DNA of 64,000 nt from Sporichthyaceae bacterium (GTDB taxonomy: Bacteria > Actinomycetota > Actinomycetes > Sporichthyales > Sporichthyaceae). The position numbers and the translations under genes were made by a program. Positions 14,011 to 43,239 of the stretch are shown piece after piece (the stretch's first letter is position 1; the number at the start of each line of letters is the position of its first letter). The DNA lies in NCBI GenBank assembly GCA_036493475.1, contig DASXPS010000217.1:1-64000 (forward strand), given 5' to 3'. The notes below the pieces were generated by a model. That model was not told the DNA's origin and ran no database searches. It worked only from the letters and a program-made list of their open reading frames with translations.

Positions 14011-14064
14011 GGCGGAAGAGCGAGGGCGTTACAGCCGCTCCACCCCCGGTGCGGTCGCCGCTCA

Positions 14065-14223
14065 CTCCCGCCGAGTTCGGACATCCGGGTGCCCCCACAG
14101 CACCCACTGTCGGAAGCCGGGGACCCACCTGTAGTTGGGGTGAGTCGGTACACCGTGACACCCGCGGTGAACCGTAGGGCGATCTTCCAGCCCGAACCCG
14201 TCAGCTAACCCGGTAGGCGGAGC
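14065..14223 (+). promoter_or_regulatory. Cyclic di-AMP riboswitch (ydaO-yuaA type)
   Basis: The leader contains the conserved ydaO core: GGGGACCCA, then TTGGGGTGAGTC (14135-14146), a GGTGAACCGTAGGG segment, and GAACCCGTCAGCTAACC (14194-14210), closing with GTAGGCGGAGC. CTCCCGCC at 14065 can pair with GGCGGAG at the 3' end as the outer P1 stem. In actinobacteria this class commonly precedes cell-wall hydrolase genes and turns them off when c-di-AMP is high. It ends 8 nt before the AGGAG of the NlpC/P60 gene. No separate terminator stem was resolved, so the mode of control is open. Confidence 0.9.
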
Positions 14224-14246
14224 AGGGAAGAGGAGTTGCCCCGCTC

Positions 14247-21571: not shown

Positions 21572-24500
21572 TCAGCGGCGCCGGTGCGTCCGTTGGTCGT
21601 GAATCTGGCGCGCCACGTCGCGGGTTTCCAGCGTCTCGGCCAGCTCGGCGACGTAGTCCTCGATGTACTCCCCGAAGACCTCGGCGACGTCCCGCTCGAA
21701 CGGCTTCTCCGCGCGCGCAGCGACCAGGATCGAGTTCGCCGCCAGCAGCGGGATGCCGACCAGGTGCGGCCATTGGGCCAACGGCACCCCGGTCAGCTCT
21801 TCGCGCAGGCCGTCCGGGTCGTCGGTGATCTTCGGCTTCTCACGGCCGAGCACCTCGCGGATGAACCAGTGCTCTTCGGAGAGCCGGTAGCGCAGGTCAC
21901 GCGCGCCGATCCCGATGCCGGACGCGGTGCTCCAGGCGTCCCCGTCCGGGATGATCATCGCGACGGCCTCGCACTCCAGATGCTCCATCGCGACGAAGGC
22001 CAGCTCCTCGCACACCTGCGCGGGCGCGGCCAGCGTGTCGGTCATGGCCATCAGCTGGTGCACGAAACCCAGGCCCGGCGGCTCCAACTCCGGCCCGTAG
22101 TACACCGGCCGGTTGGCCAGCATGCGGGCCTCGGCCTCTTCCTCGGCGTTGCGGACGGCCTCGTCGACGATCCGGTCCGCCTCGGCCCTGATCTTGGTCT
22201 GCCGGATCAGGCCCTCGACCCGTTCGATGGTCTCCACCCGGGAGACCTCGGCCTGCAGCTTGGCCGCGATGCGCTGCCGCTCGGCGTCCTCGCGGGCCCT
22301 GATGGCGGCCTGGTGCGCCTCCATCTCCGCCTGCAGCCGGGCGGCCTTGGCCGCCTCGGCGGCCAGTCGGGAGTCGACCTTGGCCTGGGCGTGCGAGGCG
22401 CGCTCGGCGACCACCCGGGCGCGTTCCTCGGCGCGCGCCGCCTCGGCAGCAACCCGCTCGGCCTGCTTCTGAGCCTCCTCGGCGGCCTTGGCTTCGGCCA
22501 CGGCCCGGGCGCGGGCGGCTTTCTCGTCCGCGCGGGCCTGGGCGTCGGCGAGTCGGGCCGCCTCGGCGCGGGCCCGCTCGATGGCTCGGGAGGCCTCGGC
22601 GGCAGCCTTTTGGTCGGCCTCGGCCATCTGCTGGGCAGCCCTCGCGGCCACCGCCGCCGCGCGTTCCGCGGCCCGGTGGGCCTCGGCGTCGGCGCGAGCG
22701 CGGTGTTTCGCCTCGATCTCGGCGGCCCTTGCCGCCTCCATCGCGGCGCGCGCCTCGGCGTCCGCTCGGGTCTTCTCCGCCTTGGCGGCCTCGGCTGCGG
22801 CCCGTTCGGCGGCCTTGATCTCGGCATCCGCGCGGGCCTGCTCGGCGCGCACCGACCCGGTGGCGGCGCGGGCCGCGGCCTTGGCCTCCGCGGTCTGCTG
22901 GGCCTGCTCCAGCCGGGCGGCCTCCTCGGCCATGCGGGTGCGGGCGTCCGGGATCGGGTGGAAATCCGTGGGCTGGGCGGGCACCGGCGGGTGCTCGGGG
23001 CCGAACTCGGCGCGTGCCCGGGCGAGTCGAGCCGCTTCCTTCTCGGCCGCCTTGGCGGCCTTTGCGGCCGCGCGGGCCCGGCTCCGGTCGTGACGCGGGT
23101 CGGCGCCGACGCCCGGCTCCAGCGGCATCGGGGTCAGCGGACCGGCGTAGGCCTGCGGGGCGGCGTACGGCTGCGGGGCGGGGTACTGCTCCGGCGCGGC
23201 GTAGCTCTCCGGTGCGCGGAACGTGTCGGGCGCCGGCTCGGAAGGCAACGGCGGCGCCGGCGGCAGCGGCGGACCGACCTCGCCCTGGCGCGGCCGTGGC
23301 CGCGCCCATGGCGCCAGTCGGTGCTTGAGACTCTCGGTGTCCGGCGCCGGCGGCAGGTCGAACTCGTCGTGCGGCGCGGTGGGGATCGTCGAGGCCGGCG
23401 GCGGTAGGAAGCGCATCCAGTCCGATTCGCCGGTGGTTTCGCCGGGGGAGGTGGCCGGTGCCGAGGACTCCCACGACGGGGTGGGCGGCGGTGCCGGGGA
23501 CAGCGGCGGGCTGGACGGCAGGTACTTCATCCACTCCGGCTCGTCGGCCGGCGCCGGCTCGGTGGGCGCGGGTTGCGCCGGGGCCGGCGTCGACGGCAGG
23601 TACTTCATCCACTCCGGTTCGTCGGCCGGGGCCGGGGCCGGATCGGTGGGCGCGGGGGCCGGGGCCGGGGTCGACCAGGTGGGGCTGGGCGGGAGGAAGT
23701 CGTCGATCGAGGGCCAGGCGTACTCCGCGGACGGGCTGGTGCTCGGCGCCGGCGCGCTCGGCTCGGCTCTGGGTGCCGGCGTGCTCCAGTCGACGCTCGG
23801 GGTGATCGGGAAGCGCTCGGTGTCCGCCGCGGGCGGGGCCTCGGTGACCGGTTCGGGTGCGGTCAGGTCGATGGCGTCCAGCGCTTCCGGGGTGAACGCG
23901 GTGCGCCAGTCCAGGCTCGCGGACTGGGTGAAGGACTCCTTGTCGAACGACGGCCACTCCACGGCCGAGCCACTCGGCGCTTCCGCCGGGGGCAGGTCCA
24001 GCCCGTCGAGGACCGAGGCGACCTCGGGAGCCGCGGGAACCTCGACGGTCGCGGGGACGTCCAGGGCCGCGGGGATATCCAGGGCGGCGGGGATATCCAG
24101 GGCCGCGGGGACGTCCAGGCCCGCCGGGACATCGTCCCCATCCCCGTCAACGTCTCCGTCGTCCCGGGCGCCGTACGCGTTCTGGTGTTCCTCCTCCTCG
24201 CGGGCGGCGGCCAGGTCCACCGCGGCCATGGTGCGGCCGACGGCGCGCAGCAGACGGTCCCGGGTCAACGGCATCGACAACGTCTTCACGTTGCGGTCGG
24301 CCAGCCGCAGGGCGACCAGCCGCGGGCTGTCCGAAACGGACTCCGCGACGATCAGCACCGGCACCTGCACCGACCGGTTGCGCAGCTCGCTCACTACGTC
24401 TACCGCGCGGTCCGCGTCACCCAGGTCGAGCATCAACAGGTGCGCGGCAGAGGCCCAGTCCACCCAGCCGGGAGTCTCGGCAGGGTCGACCGGGATCACG

Positions 24501-31517: not shown

Positions 31518-31524
31518 CTGCGGT

Positions 31525-31530
31525 TAACCT
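31525..31530 (+). promoter_or_regulatory. -10 box of the ABC exporter operon, leaderless
   Basis: TAACCT is 7 nt upstream of the ATG at 31538 with no Shine-Dalgarno, so a leaderless mRNA is likely. It lies 7 nt downstream of the acyltransferase stop. Confidence 0.45.
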
Positions 31531-31537
31531 AGGTCCG

Positions 31538-32443
31538 ATGGATGGAGCAGCAGCGATCCAGCTGCGGGGGTTGCACAAGAACTTCGGGGCGGTGCACGCG
31601 GTTCGCGGCATCGACCTGGGCGTTCCCGCCGGTCAGATGGTGGCCTTTCTCGGGCCGAACGGGGCCGGGAAGACCACCACCATCGACATGATCCTGGGCC
31701 TGTCCAGACCGAGCGCGGGGATCGTGGAGATCTACGGCACCACGCCCGGCCGGGCGGTGCGCAAGGGCCTGGTGGCCGCGGTCATGCAGACCGGCGGGCT
31801 GCTCAAGGACCTCAGCGTGGCCGAGACCGTGGAATTCACCGCGGCGCTGTGCACCAACCCGCGCCCGGTGGGCGAGGTGCTGGAGCGGGCCGGCATCGCC
31901 GGGATCGCCGATCGCATGGTCGGCAAGTGCTCCGGCGGCGAGCAGCAGCGGCTGCGCTTCGCGATGGCGTTGTTGCCGGACCCGGCGCTGCTGATCCTCG
32001 ACGAGCCGACCCAGGGCATGGACGTGGAGGGCCGCCGGGAGTTCTGGCGGGCCATCCGGGCCGATGCCCGCCGCGGGCGCACCGTGCTGTTCGCCACCCA
32101 CTACCTGGACGAGGCCGACGACCACGCCGACCGCATCGTGCTGATCCGCCGCGGCGAGATCGTCGCCGATGGCACCCCGGCGCAGGTGAAGGCCCGGGCT
32201 GCGGGTCGGGCGGTGCGGGCCACGTTGCCCGATCCGGACGTCGCGACACTGCGGGCGCTGCCCGGCGTGAGTTCGGTGGAGGTGCGCGGGAACAGCGTGC
32301 TGGTGACCACCGCGGACAGCGACCTGGTTGCCCGTCACCTGCTCACCCACACCGCGGCCCGCGACCTGGAGATCGCGGCGCTGGACCTGGAGGACGCGTT
32401 TGTCGCGCTTACCTCCGATCAGCCTGCGGAGGTGAGTTCATGA
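31538..32443 (+). CDS. ABC transporter ATP-binding protein (ABC-2 exporter type)
   Basis: This 301-aa ATPase has Walker A GPNGAGKTTT, Q-loop VMQTGGLL, signature CSGGEQQR (in place of LSGGQ), Walker B LLILDEPT and H-loop THYLDEAD. The DrrA-like C-terminal extension (about 215-300) is typical of drug or polyketide exporters. It powers the permease whose ATG overlaps its stop. Substrate unknown; multidrug or lipid export is the family norm. Confidence 0.93.
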   Translation: MDGAAAIQLRGLHKNFGAVHAVRGIDLGVPAGQMVAFLGPNGAGKTTTIDMILGLSRPSAGIVEIYGTTPGRAVRKGLVAAVMQTGGLLKDLSVAETVEFTAALCTNPRPVGEVLERAGIAGIADRMVGKCSGGEQQRLRFAMALLPDPALLILDEPTQGMDVEGRREFWRAIRADARRGRTVLFATHYLDEADDHADRIVLIRRGEIVADGTPAQVKARAAGRAVRATLPDPDVATLRALPGVSSVEVRGNSVLVTTADSDLVARHLLTHTAARDLEIAALDLEDAFVALTSDQPAEVSS

Positions 32444-33240
32444 GCGAGCAGGCCGTCGACGTGGCGGCGGCGCTGCGCCGTCCGGACGCCCGGTTCGGTG
32501 GTTTCTCCCCGACCCTGGTGCGGCTGGAGGTGCGTCGCCTGCTGCGCAACCGGCGCACGCTGATCTTCACGGTGATCGCGCCGCCGCTGTTCTTCCTGAT
32601 GTTCGGGCTCAACGACGTTTACGCCGACCTGCCGCACGGCAACGGCAACGAGTCCGCCTCGGTGCTGATCTCCATGGCGCTCTACGGCGCGGTGCTGGCC
32701 TGCACCAGCGGTGGGGCGATGGTGTCGATCGAACGGGCGGCCGGGTGGAGCCGGCAGCTGCGTGTCACGCCGTTGGTCCCGGCGGCCTACATCGTGGTGA
32801 AGATGGCCACCTCGCTGGTGCTCGGCGGCGCCTCGGTGCTGGTCGTCTACGCCACCGGGGTGGCCGCCAAGAAACCGGACATGCCGTTGTGGGTCTGGGT
32901 GATCAGTGCGTTCAGCGTGTGGATCGGCGCCCTCGTGTTCAGCGCTCTGGGCCTGTTCATCGGCTACCTGCTGCCCTCGGAGAACGTCATGCAGATCCTC
33001 GGCTTCGTGCTGATGCTCTGCTCATTCGGCGGCGGACTGTTCATCCCGCTCAGCCAGTTCTCCGACACCTGGCGCACCGTCGCCGCGTTCACCCCGCTGT
33101 GGGGGCTCAACGGGCTCGTCCACGCGCCGTTGCACGACGGCACCTTCGACTGGGTGTGGCCGGTGAACCTGCTGGCCTGGCTGTGCGTGTTCGTGGCCGG
33201 CGCCGTCTGGCGGATGAGCCGGGACACCGCCCGGGTGTGA
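32440..33240 (+). CDS. ABC-2 type transporter permease
   Basis: This 266-aa permease has six hydrophobic helices and an amphipathic N-terminus (LEVRRLLRNRRTLIF). The pattern AYIVVKMATSLVLGGASVLVVY and the large C-terminal block are ABC-2 family traits. It forms the membrane part of the exporter with the upstream ATPase. The last codons (RDTARV) contain one copy of a 12-bp sequence that recurs at 33754-33765, beyond the next gene. In many relatives a kinase-regulator pair follows; here a foreign-looking stretch follows instead. Confidence 0.92.
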   Translation: MSEQAVDVAAALRRPDARFGGFSPTLVRLEVRRLLRNRRTLIFTVIAPPLFFLMFGLNDVYADLPHGNGNESASVLISMALYGAVLACTSGGAMVSIERAAGWSRQLRVTPLVPAAYIVVKMATSLVLGGASVLVVYATGVAAKKPDMPLWVWVISAFSVWIGALVFSALGLFIGYLLPSENVMQILGFVLMLCSFGGGLFIPLSQFSDTWRTVAAFTPLWGLNGLVHAPLHDGTFDWVWPVNLLAWLCVFVAGAVWRMSRDTARV

Positions 33241-33258
33241 CACGCGCCAGTAGAAGCC

Positions 33259-33320
33259 CGCCCGCATCGGAAGGTCGGGCGATTTCGATCAACGTTCGGG
33301 CATCAGCAGCTATCCGAACG
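33259..33320. terminator. Two hairpins between the ABC permease and the unrecognised gene
   Basis: CGCCCG (33259-33264) pairs with CGGGCG (33276-33281) over an 11-nt loop, and CGTTCGG (33293-33299) pairs with CCGAACG (33314-33320) over a 14-nt loop. They lie in the gap between convergent genes and would serve as terminators, one for each direction. Confidence 0.5.
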
Positions 33321-33333
33321 GGTCCTCATACCC

Positions 33334-33759
33334 CTACGCGCTGTCGCCACCGAAGCAAGCGCCGAAGCGGTTCACGACGTCCTCGAAGCCGGCCAGGTCC
33401 AACCATTCGTTCCAGCCGGGCGACTCGTCGATGAAGCTGTCGCCCTCTCCCGACCAGTAGGTGAAGTCGCACCACCCGCCGGCATAGAGCACGAGGTGAC
33501 CTTCCTGGCGCCCGCGGCGCAGGGCGATCGCACACGAGTAGTCGCCGCGCACCGCCGAGCGATCAGTCGTCACGGCATTCACCGTGGTTTGACCATCTGC
33601 CCAAGTAATTGGTCCTACGGACAGGCCTAACAAGCGCCAAGTCTCCGCGTGACGTGCGAGCAGGCCGGCTGCGGCGTCAAGGTCGATCACCGCGTCCACA
33701 TCCGCAGCCTGCCACGGCAAGAAGCTGGCACAGGTATCGCTGCGCTTTTCCCTGGACAC
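33334..33759 (-). CDS. Unrecognised protein, 141 aa (accessory island)
   Basis: I do not recognise a family. The protein has an N-terminal helix region (DVDAVIDLDAAAGLLARH), a central set of probable beta strands (ITWADGQTTVNAVTT, GHLVLYAGG) and a Trp/Tyr/Asp-rich C-terminal part (WCDFTYWSGEGDSF and ESPGWNEWLDLAGFED). Small acidic Trp-rich proteins of this look include immunity proteins, but that is only a resemblance. The start is a GTG without a clear ribosome site, so it may be wrong. A 12-bp repeat lies at its 5' end and again in the permease tail. Base composition looks slightly less GC-rich than its neighbours. Confidence 0.55.
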   Translation of the reverse strand: MSREKRSDTCASFLPWQAADVDAVIDLDAAAGLLARHAETWRLLGLSVGPITWADGQTTVNAVTTDRSAVRGDYSCAIALRRGRQEGHLVLYAGGWCDFTYWSGEGDSFIDESPGWNEWLDLAGFEDVVNRFGACFGGDSA

Positions 33760-33780
33760 CGCCCGTATCTAGGCCCGCGC

Positions 33781-33861
33781 AACAGGTGGGCAAGGTTGAA
33801 ACGCGAGTGACCGCCTCGCGCCGTAAGTCGCCACATCCTTTTCAACTCGTCCCGTCAGTGG
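33781..33861. repeat. Palindromic element, copy 1
   Basis: GGTGGGCAAGGTTGAAACGC at 33786 onward faces CCTTTTCAACTCGTCCCGTC at 33837-33856, giving an imperfect inverted repeat. It shares the 22-nt stretch at 33788-33809 exactly with copy 2 (34777-34798). The right arm overlaps the stop of the DUF559-type gene, so it probably works as that gene's terminator as well as being a dispersed repeat. Confidence 0.7.
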
Positions 33862-34700
33862 TGTCGTGGCCCGAGGCTGAGCACCCGCGCCACCTGCTCC
33901 AGGACCCAACCCGGCCGGAAGCGGACGTCCTCCCAGGTGAAGCGCAGCAGCACGTAGCCGTGTGCCGCCAGGGCATTGAGGCGTCCGCGGTCCTGACGGT
34001 AGGCCTGTCGGTCGGAGTGGAACTCGAAGCCGTCCGCCTCGACGACCAGCCATCCGTCGAGCACGAAGTCCACGGGTGCGACGACGCCCGGGATGCGCAC
34101 TTGGCTGCGCAACTCGCAATCGAGGATGGTGAGGATGAGTCGAAGAACGGACTCCAGCGGCGATGCGGCGAGTTCGTCGGCGAATCGCACCGCGCGCCGC
34201 AGCGCTGCGGCGCCATGACCACGCGCCGCGTCGGCTGCTGTCTGCAGCGGTCCGCGTCGCACCATGCCGCCGTGCAGCGCTGCATCCATCACGACAAGGG
34301 CTTCGGGCAGTGGCATGATGCGGGCGCAATCGAGCACGGTACGCAGCGTGGCCGTCAGGGGTCGGAACGGATCTATTTCGGCAGGGCACAGGCGCGCTCG
34401 GTGGATCCGGACACCGGGTTGGGGTGAGTGGCTGCCCGCCGCGACGGTGACGTCCAACGTCGGGTCCGGTCGCCACGACCCGAATCCATGTAGCAGGGCG
34501 GCGCTTCCGTGCGAAGCCACCCCACCCACGCGGGCAGCCGTCACCAGCGCTGCCGGGGCGTCCGGCAACGCGAAAGTGCCGCGGGCGATGACGAGTTCCG
34601 GCCCGGCGGATCGCAACACGTGCGCCGACACCCCGAGGCCGCGCAGGGTTTTCCATCGGGCCGCCCCGCCGCACTTCTGCAGTGCCACATCGAGATCCAC
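33855..34700 (-). CDS. DUF559 / Vsr-like endonuclease-fold protein with AbiEi-like N-terminus
   Basis: This 281-aa protein has an N-terminal region resembling AbiEi-type antitoxin or transcriptional regulator domains (GLGVSAHVLRSAG, VASHGSAALLHGFGSW) and a C-terminal DUF559-like fold (FVLDGWLVVEADGFEFHSDRQAYRQDRGR, then NALAAHGYVLLRFTWEDV), the pattern of Vsr-like or PD-(D/E)xK endonucleases, with D/E/D residues present. No toxin partner lies next to it. Proteins of this kind are common and variable in actinobacteria; the role is unknown. It is bracketed by palindromic elements. GTG 34700 has no clear ribosome site. Confidence 0.75.
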   Translation of the reverse strand: MDLDVALQKCGGAARWKTLRGLGVSAHVLRSAGPELVIARGTFALPDAPAALVTAARVGGVASHGSAALLHGFGSWRPDPTLDVTVAAGSHSPQPGVRIHRARLCPAEIDPFRPLTATLRTVLDCARIMPLPEALVVMDAALHGGMVRRGPLQTAADAARGHGAAALRRAVRFADELAASPLESVLRLILTILDCELRSQVRIPGVVAPVDFVLDGWLVVEADGFEFHSDRQAYRQDRGRLNALAAHGYVLLRFTWEDVRFRPGWVLEQVARVLSLGPRHH

Positions 34701-34767
34701 GATGGCAATCTGGCGGGTAGTGGGGCGGGTCGGAGGAGATTCGGCGGCGCTGTGGATAAGCGGCGAA

Positions 34768-34855
34768 ACAACTGCTGGGCAAGGTTGAAACGCGAGTGGC
34801 GGCGCCCTCGGCGTGTCCCGTCACTCTGTTTTCAACCTTGCCCTCCAGTGGTTGG
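34768..34855. repeat. Palindromic element, copy 2
   Basis: The left part (ACTGCTGGGCAAGGTTGAAA, from 34771) and the right part (TTTTCAACCTTGCCCTCCAG, 34829-34848) form inverted arms of about 34 nt, of which about 25 pair, with a loop around 34803-34817. It ends 3 bases before the glpK stop and so should terminate glpK. The left-arm core is identical over 22 nt to copy 1, and the two copies sit about 1 kb apart in the same orientation around one gene. Confidence 0.75.
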
Positions 34856-34857
34856 AC

Positions 34858-36339
34858 TCAGCCGAGCCCGGCCCATCCGCGCGACCGCTGGACCGCGACC
34901 TGCCAGCGGCGGTATGCCGCGTCGTCGCGGGGGCCCGGTTCGAAGCGGCGGTCCAGGCGCCAGGTGTCGGCCAGGGTGGCCGGGTCCGGCCAGACGCCGG
35001 CACCCAACCCGGCCAGGAACGCGGCGCCCAACCCGGTGGTCTCCAGTACCTCGGGGCGTTCCACCGGGATCTGCAACTGGTCGGCCTGTACCTGACAGAG
35101 GAACCCGTTGGCGCTGGCTCCGCCGTCCACGGTGAGCATCGGGATGGTCAGTCCGGCGTCGGCGGTCATCACGTCCACCACGTCACGCACCTGGAAGGCA
35201 ATGGCCTCCAGGGTGGCCCGGGCCAGGTGTGCGGGGGTGGTGCCCCGGGTCAGGCCGAACATGGCGCCGCGAGCCTCGGGGTCCCAGTGCGGGGCACCCA
35301 GGCCGGTGAGCGCGGGCACGAACACCACGCCGCCGGTGTCCGGTACGGAGGTGGCCAACTTCTCGGTTTGCGCCGCGAGTTCGATCAGGCCCAGCCCGTC
35401 GCGCAGCCACTGCACCGCGGCGCCGGTGACGAAGATGGCGCCCTCCAGCGCGTAGGTCAGGGCACCGTGCGGCGCCTGCCAGGCCACCGTGGTGAGCAAC
35501 CCGGCGCTGGACCGGATGAGCTGCGTACCGGTGTTGATGAGGATGAACGAGCCGGTGCCATAGGTGCATTTGGAGTCGCCGGGGGAGTAGCAGGCCTGGC
35601 CGAACAATGCCGCCTGTTGGTCCCCGGCCACCCCGGTGACCGGGAGGCTCAGGCCCAGGAAGGCGTCGGGGTCGGTGCGGCCGAACTCGCCCCAGGACGG
35701 GCGCACGGCGGGCAGGGCGTCCATGGGCACCTGCAACAGCTCGCACAACTCCTGCGACCAGGCGCCCGCGGTGATGTCGTAGAGCAGTGTGCGGGAGGCG
35801 TTGGAGGCGTCAGTAGCGTGCACCTGACCTCCCGTCAGCCGGGCGATCAGGTAGGCGTCCACGGTGCCGACCGCGACCTCGCCCGCGCGCACCCCCGCCC
35901 ACGCCGGGTCGTGCTCGGCCAGCCAGGAGAGCTTGGTGCCGGTGAAGTACGGGTCCAGCCGCAGCCCGGTGAGCTCGGCGACCCGCGGTTCGTGCCCGGC
36001 CTCGATCAGCCGTTCGCAGATCGCCGTGGTGCGCCGGTCCTGCCACACCAGCGCTTTGCGCGGGGAGCGCAGCGTGCGGCGGTCCCAGAGCACCGCGGTC
36101 TCCCGTTGGTTGGTGATGCCGATGCACGTCACCGGCGCGGCGTCGGCGGCGGAGTCCAGCGCGGTCCGGCAGGCGGCCAGCGTGGCCTGCCAGATCTCCT
36201 CGGCGTCGTGCTCCACCCAGCCCGACGCGGGGAAGTACTGGGGGAATTCCTGATACCCCCGCCCGACCACCCTGGCGGTCTCGTCGACCACCAGCGCAGT
36301 GATTCCGGTGGTCCCGGCGTCGATGGCGAGAATGCTCAT
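34858..36339 (-). CDS. glpK: Glycerol kinase
   Basis: This 493-aa FGGY kinase phosphorylates glycerol to glycerol 3-phosphate. It has the N-terminal ATP-phosphate loop AIDAGTTGITALV, the glycerol-binding NQRETAVLWDRRT, YFTGTKLSWL, the ADP-site TYGTGSFILIN, and the C-terminal VDGGASANGFL FGGY signature region. Length is normal (about 500). Its ATG faces a methyltransferase start across 23 bp. A palindromic element right after the stop probably ends the transcript. No glpF or glpD is adjacent. Confidence 0.95.
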   Translation of the reverse strand: MSILAIDAGTTGITALVVDETARVVGRGYQEFPQYFPASGWVEHDAEEIWQATLAACRTALDSAADAAPVTCIGITNQRETAVLWDRRTLRSPRKALVWQDRRTTAICERLIEAGHEPRVAELTGLRLDPYFTGTKLSWLAEHDPAWAGVRAGEVAVGTVDAYLIARLTGGQVHATDASNASRTLLYDITAGAWSQELCELLQVPMDALPAVRPSWGEFGRTDPDAFLGLSLPVTGVAGDQQAALFGQACYSPGDSKCTYGTGSFILINTGTQLIRSSAGLLTTVAWQAPHGALTYALEGAIFVTGAAVQWLRDGLGLIELAAQTEKLATSVPDTGGVVFVPALTGLGAPHWDPEARGAMFGLTRGTTPAHLARATLEAIAFQVRDVVDVMTADAGLTIPMLTVDGGASANGFLCQVQADQLQIPVERPEVLETTGLGAAFLAGLGAGVWPDPATLADTWRLDRRFEPGPRDDAAYRRWQVAVQRSRGWAGLG

Positions 36340-43072: not shown

Positions 43073-43090
43073 GATCGCGACCGTGCGATC
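43073..43090 (+). terminator. Hairpin after mraZ
   Basis: GATCGC (43073-43078) pairs with GCGATC (43085-43090) over a 6-nt loop, 11 bp after the mraZ stop. Without a U tract it may be only an attenuating structure in the mraZ-rsmH gap. No other structured element was recognised in 43091-43239. Confidence 0.35.
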
Positions 43091-43239
43091 AGGTCTCCCC
43101 CCGCTCGAGCTTCGCCGACTCACTTCCCCGGAGCCGGCCTAGCGAGCGGGCGGGGACCTGAATGCACGGCCGATTGAAGCCCGCTGAGGGAGCGCAACGA
43201 CCGAACACGGGACAGTCCGCGGGGCGGGAGGTGACAACG

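Follow-up and report, generated by a model that had tools for sequence, protein, structure and literature searches.

What ties a putative nuclease gene to the two related palindromes that enclose it? The question was raised by a short interval in 64,000 nt of DNA from a Sporichthyaceae bacterium (GenBank assembly GCA_036493475.1, contig DASXPS010000217.1, positions 1 to 64,000; the whole stretch is called the window here). A preliminary description, made from the letters alone, had suggested that the interval could be a repeat-flanked cassette that moves or is swapped by homologous recombination. We compared the locus with related genomes and with known systems, and the features discussed below are as follows.

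33334-33759, minus strand: 141-aa ORF between the exporter and palindrome A
33778-33864, strand not assigned: degenerate palindrome A, located downstream at the stop codon of the DUF559 gene, with arms of two types
33787-33809, plus strand: 23-nt identical core, copy in A
33855..34700, minus strand: AbiEi-DUF559 fusion gene, 281 aa, putative palindrome-acting nuclease (Pfam, PADLOC, AlphaFold2 model)
33858..34169, minus strand: Vsr/homing-endonuclease-like half, residues 178-281 (fold matches; putative catalytic E183, D211, E221 and D223)
34176..34700, minus strand: AbiEi-like putative DNA-binding half, residues 1-175 (6y8q fold match, PADLOC AbiEi)
34765-34856, strand not assigned: palindrome B, the copy in the gap that separates glpK from the DUF559 gene, about 70 bp upstream of the DUF559 start
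34776-34798, plus strand: 23-nt identical core, copy in B

The window locus and its protein

The cassette was neighbored by an ABC-2 exporter, the 141-aa ORF and glpK. Both palindromes were found where the preliminary description had placed them (33781-33861 and 34768-34855) and in the same orientation; a 35-nt direct repeat common to A and B (89%) gave the start-to-start distance of 989 bp that it had reported. It was also right that the two share an exact core, but the longest identical stretch measured 23 nt and not 22. Over the full elements, 61/87 positions were identical (70%). As had been described, both palindromes were located at 3' ends of minus-strand genes: B stops just short of the glpK stop at 34858, and the DUF559 stop at 33855 falls within A. 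The 13-mer GGCAAGGTTGAAA, searched with at most two mismatches, had three matches in the window against 0.40 expected, and three were reached in 0/100 shuffles.

Palindrome B has 36-nt arms, 81% complementary, around a 15-nt spacer. Its predicted DNA fold had an energy of -30.5 kcal/mol, compared with -13.6 in shuffled sequence (z -7.2), whereas the fold of A was no better than its shuffles (z +0.6). The left arm of A was of the copy B type (score 23); its right arm scored up to 16 against palindromes flanking the homologues in the relatives G001 and G004, and 7-9 against the A-left and B arms. Palindrome A looks chimeric from these arm scores, and B is probably an operator that doubles as the cognate element of the DUF559 gene. 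At the gathering threshold, no Rfam family matched the palindromes in the window and seven further loci. Elsewhere in the window Rfam models placed a c-di-AMP riboswitch (14062-14234, plus strand, RF00379, 77 bits) and an mraW RNA motif (43075-43179, plus strand, RF01746, 66 bits). Exact repeats of at least 20 nt also occurred at 23514/23592 and 48256/52210.

The 281-aa protein matched Pfam DUF559 (PF04480) with an E value of 4.6e-7 (30.1 bits, cut-off 20.6), and its N-terminal half matched the PADLOC AbiEi models at 3e-10, in agreement with its first assignment as AbiEi/DUF559-like; no curated NCBIfam family was matched. The AlphaFold2 model had a mean pLDDT of 92.8. Folds were compared with VIA-align, and families missing from its list may match as well. 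Residues 1-175 resembled AbiEi (6y8q, Z 9.8 over 165 residues), and residues 178-281 resembled 3hrl (Z 13.6), I-Bth0305I (3r3p, Z 12.8) and Vsr (1cw0, Z 10.5). All 104 homologues had E183, D211 and an acidic residue (D or E) at position 223, and 103 of them had E221. We used this 104-homologue set for conservation figures, since a 14-protein alignment over-stated invariance because its loci had been picked by peptide patterns including EADGFEFH. As modelled, the protein is an AbiEi-type domain fused to a Vsr/homing-type nuclease with conserved catalytic residues.

AbiEi proteins are described as binding a pair of 23-bp inverted repeats, with 3 or 13 bp between them, before their own genes (PMC7319586), a size close to that of the upstream palindrome. 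No AbiEii nucleotidyltransferase toxin was found among the near neighbors in the window. The exporter ATPase gave an AAA_21 match, labelled 'putative AbiEii toxin', and its best match was ABC_tran. The gene between the exporter and glpK that had gone unrecognised corresponds to the 141-aa ORF, and it had no Pfam or PADLOC match.

The preliminary description had also proposed searching for other genomic copies of the core and comparing the interval in relatives. In the window genome the core had no copies beyond the two. The element was absent from the rest of the 4.27-Mb draft, where the next matches had E values of 0.004 or worse, and the palindrome of a DUF559 paralogue on contig C12 of the same genome showed no amplification and no solo copies. 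The system is thus small in the window organism, with two tested cassettes that each have their own two palindromes only. The window copy is an unamplified unit, and its interest comes from what relatives show.

The gene order of the interval did differ among relatives, so that of the two observations which the preliminary description had named as refuting its idea, an unchanged order in all relatives and a core without further genomic copies, only the second was made. Lysophospholipase, acyltransferase and glpK were kept in 4/4 relatives of the order (G001-G004), and the exporter, the 141-aa ORF and the DUF559 gene were missing from the interval in all four. The acyltransferase-glpK interval (31520-34857 in the window) is variable: it holds the exporter, the 141-aa ORF and the cassette here, one different gene in G003 (an MGH1-like glycoside hydrolase by Pfam) and in G004 (a similar ORF; same family as the window genome), and a gap of similar size in G002. 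In G001, of the same genus as the window organism, it was only about 100 bp long and contained a 62-nt near-perfect palindrome of another type. The closest DUF559 homologue, 77% identical, was located on contig C126 of G001, outside this interval. The window interval is an island.

Paired and dispersed palindromes in related genomes

Homologues of the window protein were found in 78/98 genomes of the class. To compare flanks, each 300-bp upstream flank was aligned with its own gene's 300-bp downstream flank and with those of every other gene, in a set of 49 class-wide genes (loci L028-L087, minus duplicates and loci with short flanks). The own flank pair exceeded the 99th percentile of cross-gene pairs at 25/49 genes in direct orientation and at 20/49 in inverted orientation, with 0.5 expected in each case; 24/49 were below the direct threshold. 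Shifted windows of the same contig, used as a second control, left 21/47 class-wide genes above the 99th percentile. The paired palindromes were about 56-90 nt long, and their sequence differed from gene to gene and was specific to the own gene. DUF559 homologues were found in 1/72,556 plasmid records and 1/50,697 phage records, and this near absence is as expected for a chromosomal resident. A palindrome of a species-rich genus of the same class (g5, probably Mycobacterium) had no match in plasmid and phage records, one query being possibly incomplete. The phage record was an 8.6-kb entry named Bacteriophage sp., which may not be a phage; it held a 39% identical homologue at MT837367.1:3944-4741.

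The palindrome in the G001 interval recurred at no fewer than 40 genomic places (80 matches on both strands; 40 of 64 candidates scored). Two copies on contig C88 (88058-88119 and 89094-89155) bracket a DUF559 gene at 88360-89085 that had been found independently. In an alignment of 22 copies the repeated unit measured about 60 nt and the sequences on either side of it were unrelated; arm covariation among these 22 was not above that of shuffles (89.0 vs 88.5%). The same palindrome had no match in G000 and G002, one weak match in G003 and three in G004. For the L063 palindrome of G004, few weak relatives only were found. A solo palindrome of G004 (L070:2203-2280) was akin to copy B, 77% over 69 nt; its neighbors read like comEC and holA genes.

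Genus g5 gave the largest numbers. Its flanks were paired above the 99th percentile of shifted same-contig controls at 31/47 genes, and most pairs had the outer end GAGCAGAC in common and differed in the inner arm. Among 34 upstream copies, 0.90 of inner cells were paired against 0.61 with partners shuffled between species; centers had been chosen to maximise pairing, which favors the observed value somewhat. The arm GAGCAGACGCRAAAGCCCC, with at most two mismatches, had 219 matches in G157 (108+111), 185 in G103 and 178 in G082, against 0-2 per strand for its reversed pattern, and at least one match in 59/78 g5 genomes. In this genus, palindrome numbers rise to roughly 100 per genome.

Arm matches were more numerous where a close DUF559 homologue was present, with a median of 9 in 55 genomes against 0 in the 23 without one (p 7.5e-5). 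Of the genomes with a close gene, 28/55 had fewer than 10 matches, and 6/23 without one still had 4-90 and carried remote DUF559 genes only. None of 20 remote-gene loci scanned (L376-L395) had the GAGCAGACGCRAAAGCCCC-arm palindrome type beside the gene. At most of these 20 loci, the remote gene was flanked on one side or on both by a different palindrome of its own, usually about 54-75 nt long. Of the upstream flanks in g5, 20 fell in one orthologous locus, nine and six in two others, which indicates that the gene is often inherited in place. The close homologues at L140 (G105) and L146 (G160) each had one in-frame TAG and are perhaps decaying; L140 had no matched flank pair.

Palindrome type and the resident gene

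A second core type, TCGCA, was counted in the same 78 g5 genomes, and gene flanks were classified at 70 loci, 62 of them with a GAGCAG-type arm, from 47 genomes. These genomes comprised 18 with T-type flanks, 19 with G-type flanks, five with both and five unclassified; the other 31 gave no such gene. After the gene's own arms had been subtracted, the median log2(T/G) of solo copies was +3.6 in the T-gene genomes and -2.3 in the G-gene genomes (p 2e-6, uncorrected for phylogeny). T copies outnumbered G copies in 16/18 of the former, and G copies outnumbered T copies in 15/19 of the latter; the mismatches were 2/18 and 4/19, two of these four being ties. Under a strict selection, which left 12 and 9 genomes, p was 1.7e-4, likewise uncorrected for phylogeny. 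Species are not independent, and this weighs against the type-matching statistics. At the commonest orthologous locus (n=14 species), own palindrome pairs reached 35.8 against 23.1 for mixed pairs (p 5e-5). Judged from these alignments, matched own pairs at one orthologous locus have the appearance of concerted evolution.

Exchange at fixed sites was followed in G157, whose gene flanks are G-type, and G117, whose gene flanks are T-type; 600 kb of each were compared, of which 236 kb aligned at 84.4%. All four GAGCAG-type sites with alignable flanks were occupied in both species, which indicates that insertion is slow or old. At three of the four, the core type differed, the outer ends were retained and the flanks were 86-96% identical; the remaining one had the same core. 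The exchanged cores included the loop and were replaced as a block. A fifth shared site, of outer type GAGGGTG, was identical.

Empty sites were sought by joining the flanks of six G161 sites and comparing them with 198 genomes, of which 183 matched, with two candidates scored per genome. At site L221 the palindrome was missing in 28/28 genomes besides G161, with 9-36 nt in a place where an occupied site has 80, and at L225 a short remnant was present in the one relative seen. For the other four sites, no usable relative was found among 30 loci. No target-site duplication was evident in 20 solo-site flanks and the 28 empty L221 counterparts, where intergenic flanks were too diverged for exact boundaries, and no exact insertion boundary was seen in them. 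By inspection, the G161 solo palindromes were often directly 3' of stop codons, and no T-run followed the G161 hairpins.

Explanations and known systems

DUF559 genes and palindromes are associated. We think it rather probable that the window locus belongs to a gene-plus-palindrome system that resembles REP/RAYT, has an unrelated nuclease at its base, and both spreads and overwrites the palindromes cognate to it. The binding, cutting and copying, and the nuclease as their agent, are inferred. The fusion protein would be encoded between two cognate copies, the upstream one probably serving also as operator, as in AbiE. Its AbiEi half may bind the palindrome and its Vsr/homing half may nick or cut palindromes, after which repair would place copies of the cognate palindrome in further intergenic sites and on top of palindromes already present. 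The gene would be copied along rarely, so that its spread is rarer than that of the palindrome. With time, palindromes of the resident type would come to fill such a genome, and the two beside the gene would continue to match. As a speculation, the constant outer ends may act as short homologies for repair. In related bacteria, tens of copies carry the palindrome type of the resident gene, and this points to a self-spreading DNA element of a little-known kind.

A more far-reaching proposal, which we put forward tentatively and judge possible but doubtful, is that the AbiEi-Vsr nuclease overwrites cores genome-wide, converting hairpins at fixed sites to the type of a new gene, and represents a previously undescribed selfish class. 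Palindrome A of the window would then be half-converted, with one arm of the older GACGAGTTG type.

It is also conceivable, though we find it unlikely, that the palindromes are operators or terminators selected by the host, with DUF559 an AbiEi-like regulator that co-evolves with many sites and the flanking pair an autoregulatory operator and a terminator. This would accord with the similar-size inverted repeats bound by AbiEi before its own genes, as described in PMC7319586, with the frequent position of palindromes just 3' of stop codons, and with the abundance of hairpin terminators (TRIT) modelled in mycobacteria (PMC3526491). However, point mutation under selection would not replace cores as blocks at 3/4 sites between near-identical flanks. 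In addition, 103-104 of 104 homologues keep the putative nuclease residues, other species lack the palindrome at solo sites, and the G161 hairpins are without a T-run.

That the cassette is passive, its repeats being insertion leftovers or homology for general recombination and its nuclease without a role, is improbable in our view. The direct repeats 989 bp apart and the absence of the cassette from the interval in 4/4 relatives speak for it, and on the latter ground the preliminary idea of a movable cassette holds as far as an island goes. The plain recombination-arm reading is only partly right because the palindromes are gene-specific, are amplified to tens of copies in related genomes and change type with the resident gene. 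Moreover, unrelated DUF559 genes throughout the class have matched, gene-specific pairs as well, the type of the solo copies follows that of the gene, and the identity shared by A and B is short (23 nt; 70% overall) and poor for general recombination. We give as little credence to a defence or toxin-like nuclease derived from AbiE, with palindromes that mark self DNA or control expression; the relationship to AbiEi and weak matches to defence nucleases point that way, but the gene has no AbiEii partner beside it in the window, and amplified, type-switching solo copies would be left unexplained.

In the open-access literature searched we found no paper linking DUF559 to palindromes and no known role of DUF559 homologues. 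A tie between the two would explain both common genes and common hairpins, and would mean that REP/RAYT has a counterpart with a different nuclease. It would also be a natural case of numerous dispersed repeats whose type tracks that of one gene, and thus a direct test of concerted evolution.

The feature resembles several known systems in part. TRIT elements are likewise abundant hairpins near gene 3' ends, a likeness by description with sequences uncompared; in PMC3526491 they are described as terminators, with no DUF559 link in the portion consulted. With the homing endonuclease I-Bth0305I (3r3p) and with Vsr (1cw0) the protein shares, in the model, the nuclease fold and conserved acidic residues, so that a nuclease fold with an intact active site, as in homing endonucleases, appears to be present. 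In contrast to homing genes, the DUF559 gene is not intron-borne as far as seen, its site lies unsplit on both sides, and what is copied is mostly the short palindrome and not the gene.

Residues 1-175 have the fold of the AbiE type IV AbiEi proteins (S. agalactiae 6y8q; M. tuberculosis Rv2827c, 1zel), and AbiEi too binds paired inverted repeats of similar size before its own gene, as described in PMC7319586. AbiE differs in that it lacks the nuclease domain found here and has an adjoining AbiEii toxin, which was not found beside this gene; here, moreover, a second repeat follows the gene, and relatives have dispersed copies. We filed the feature under neither RAYT nor AbiE because the gene encodes no HUH enzyme and no toxin partner was found next to it.

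Each end of an IS200/IS605 element carries an imperfect palindrome, and the two are oriented alike, as they are here, but the present locus has no HUH transposase and each of its end palindromes is far larger than theirs. RAYT (TnpA-REP) is a Y1 HUH enzyme, encoded between two REP palindromes that have short extragenic copies of matching type. The present gene encodes an AbiEi and Vsr/PD-(D/E)XK fusion (Pfam DUF559, AbiEi plus Vsr/homing fold in the model) without the HUH tyrosine enzyme, and its palindromes are 56-90 nt long with cores exchanged at fixed sites. It agrees with REP/RAYT in that one chromosomal nuclease gene is located between two palindrome copies, the only copies in the window genome, and that in relatives matching palindromes both flank the gene and are dispersed as many extragenic copies of its type.
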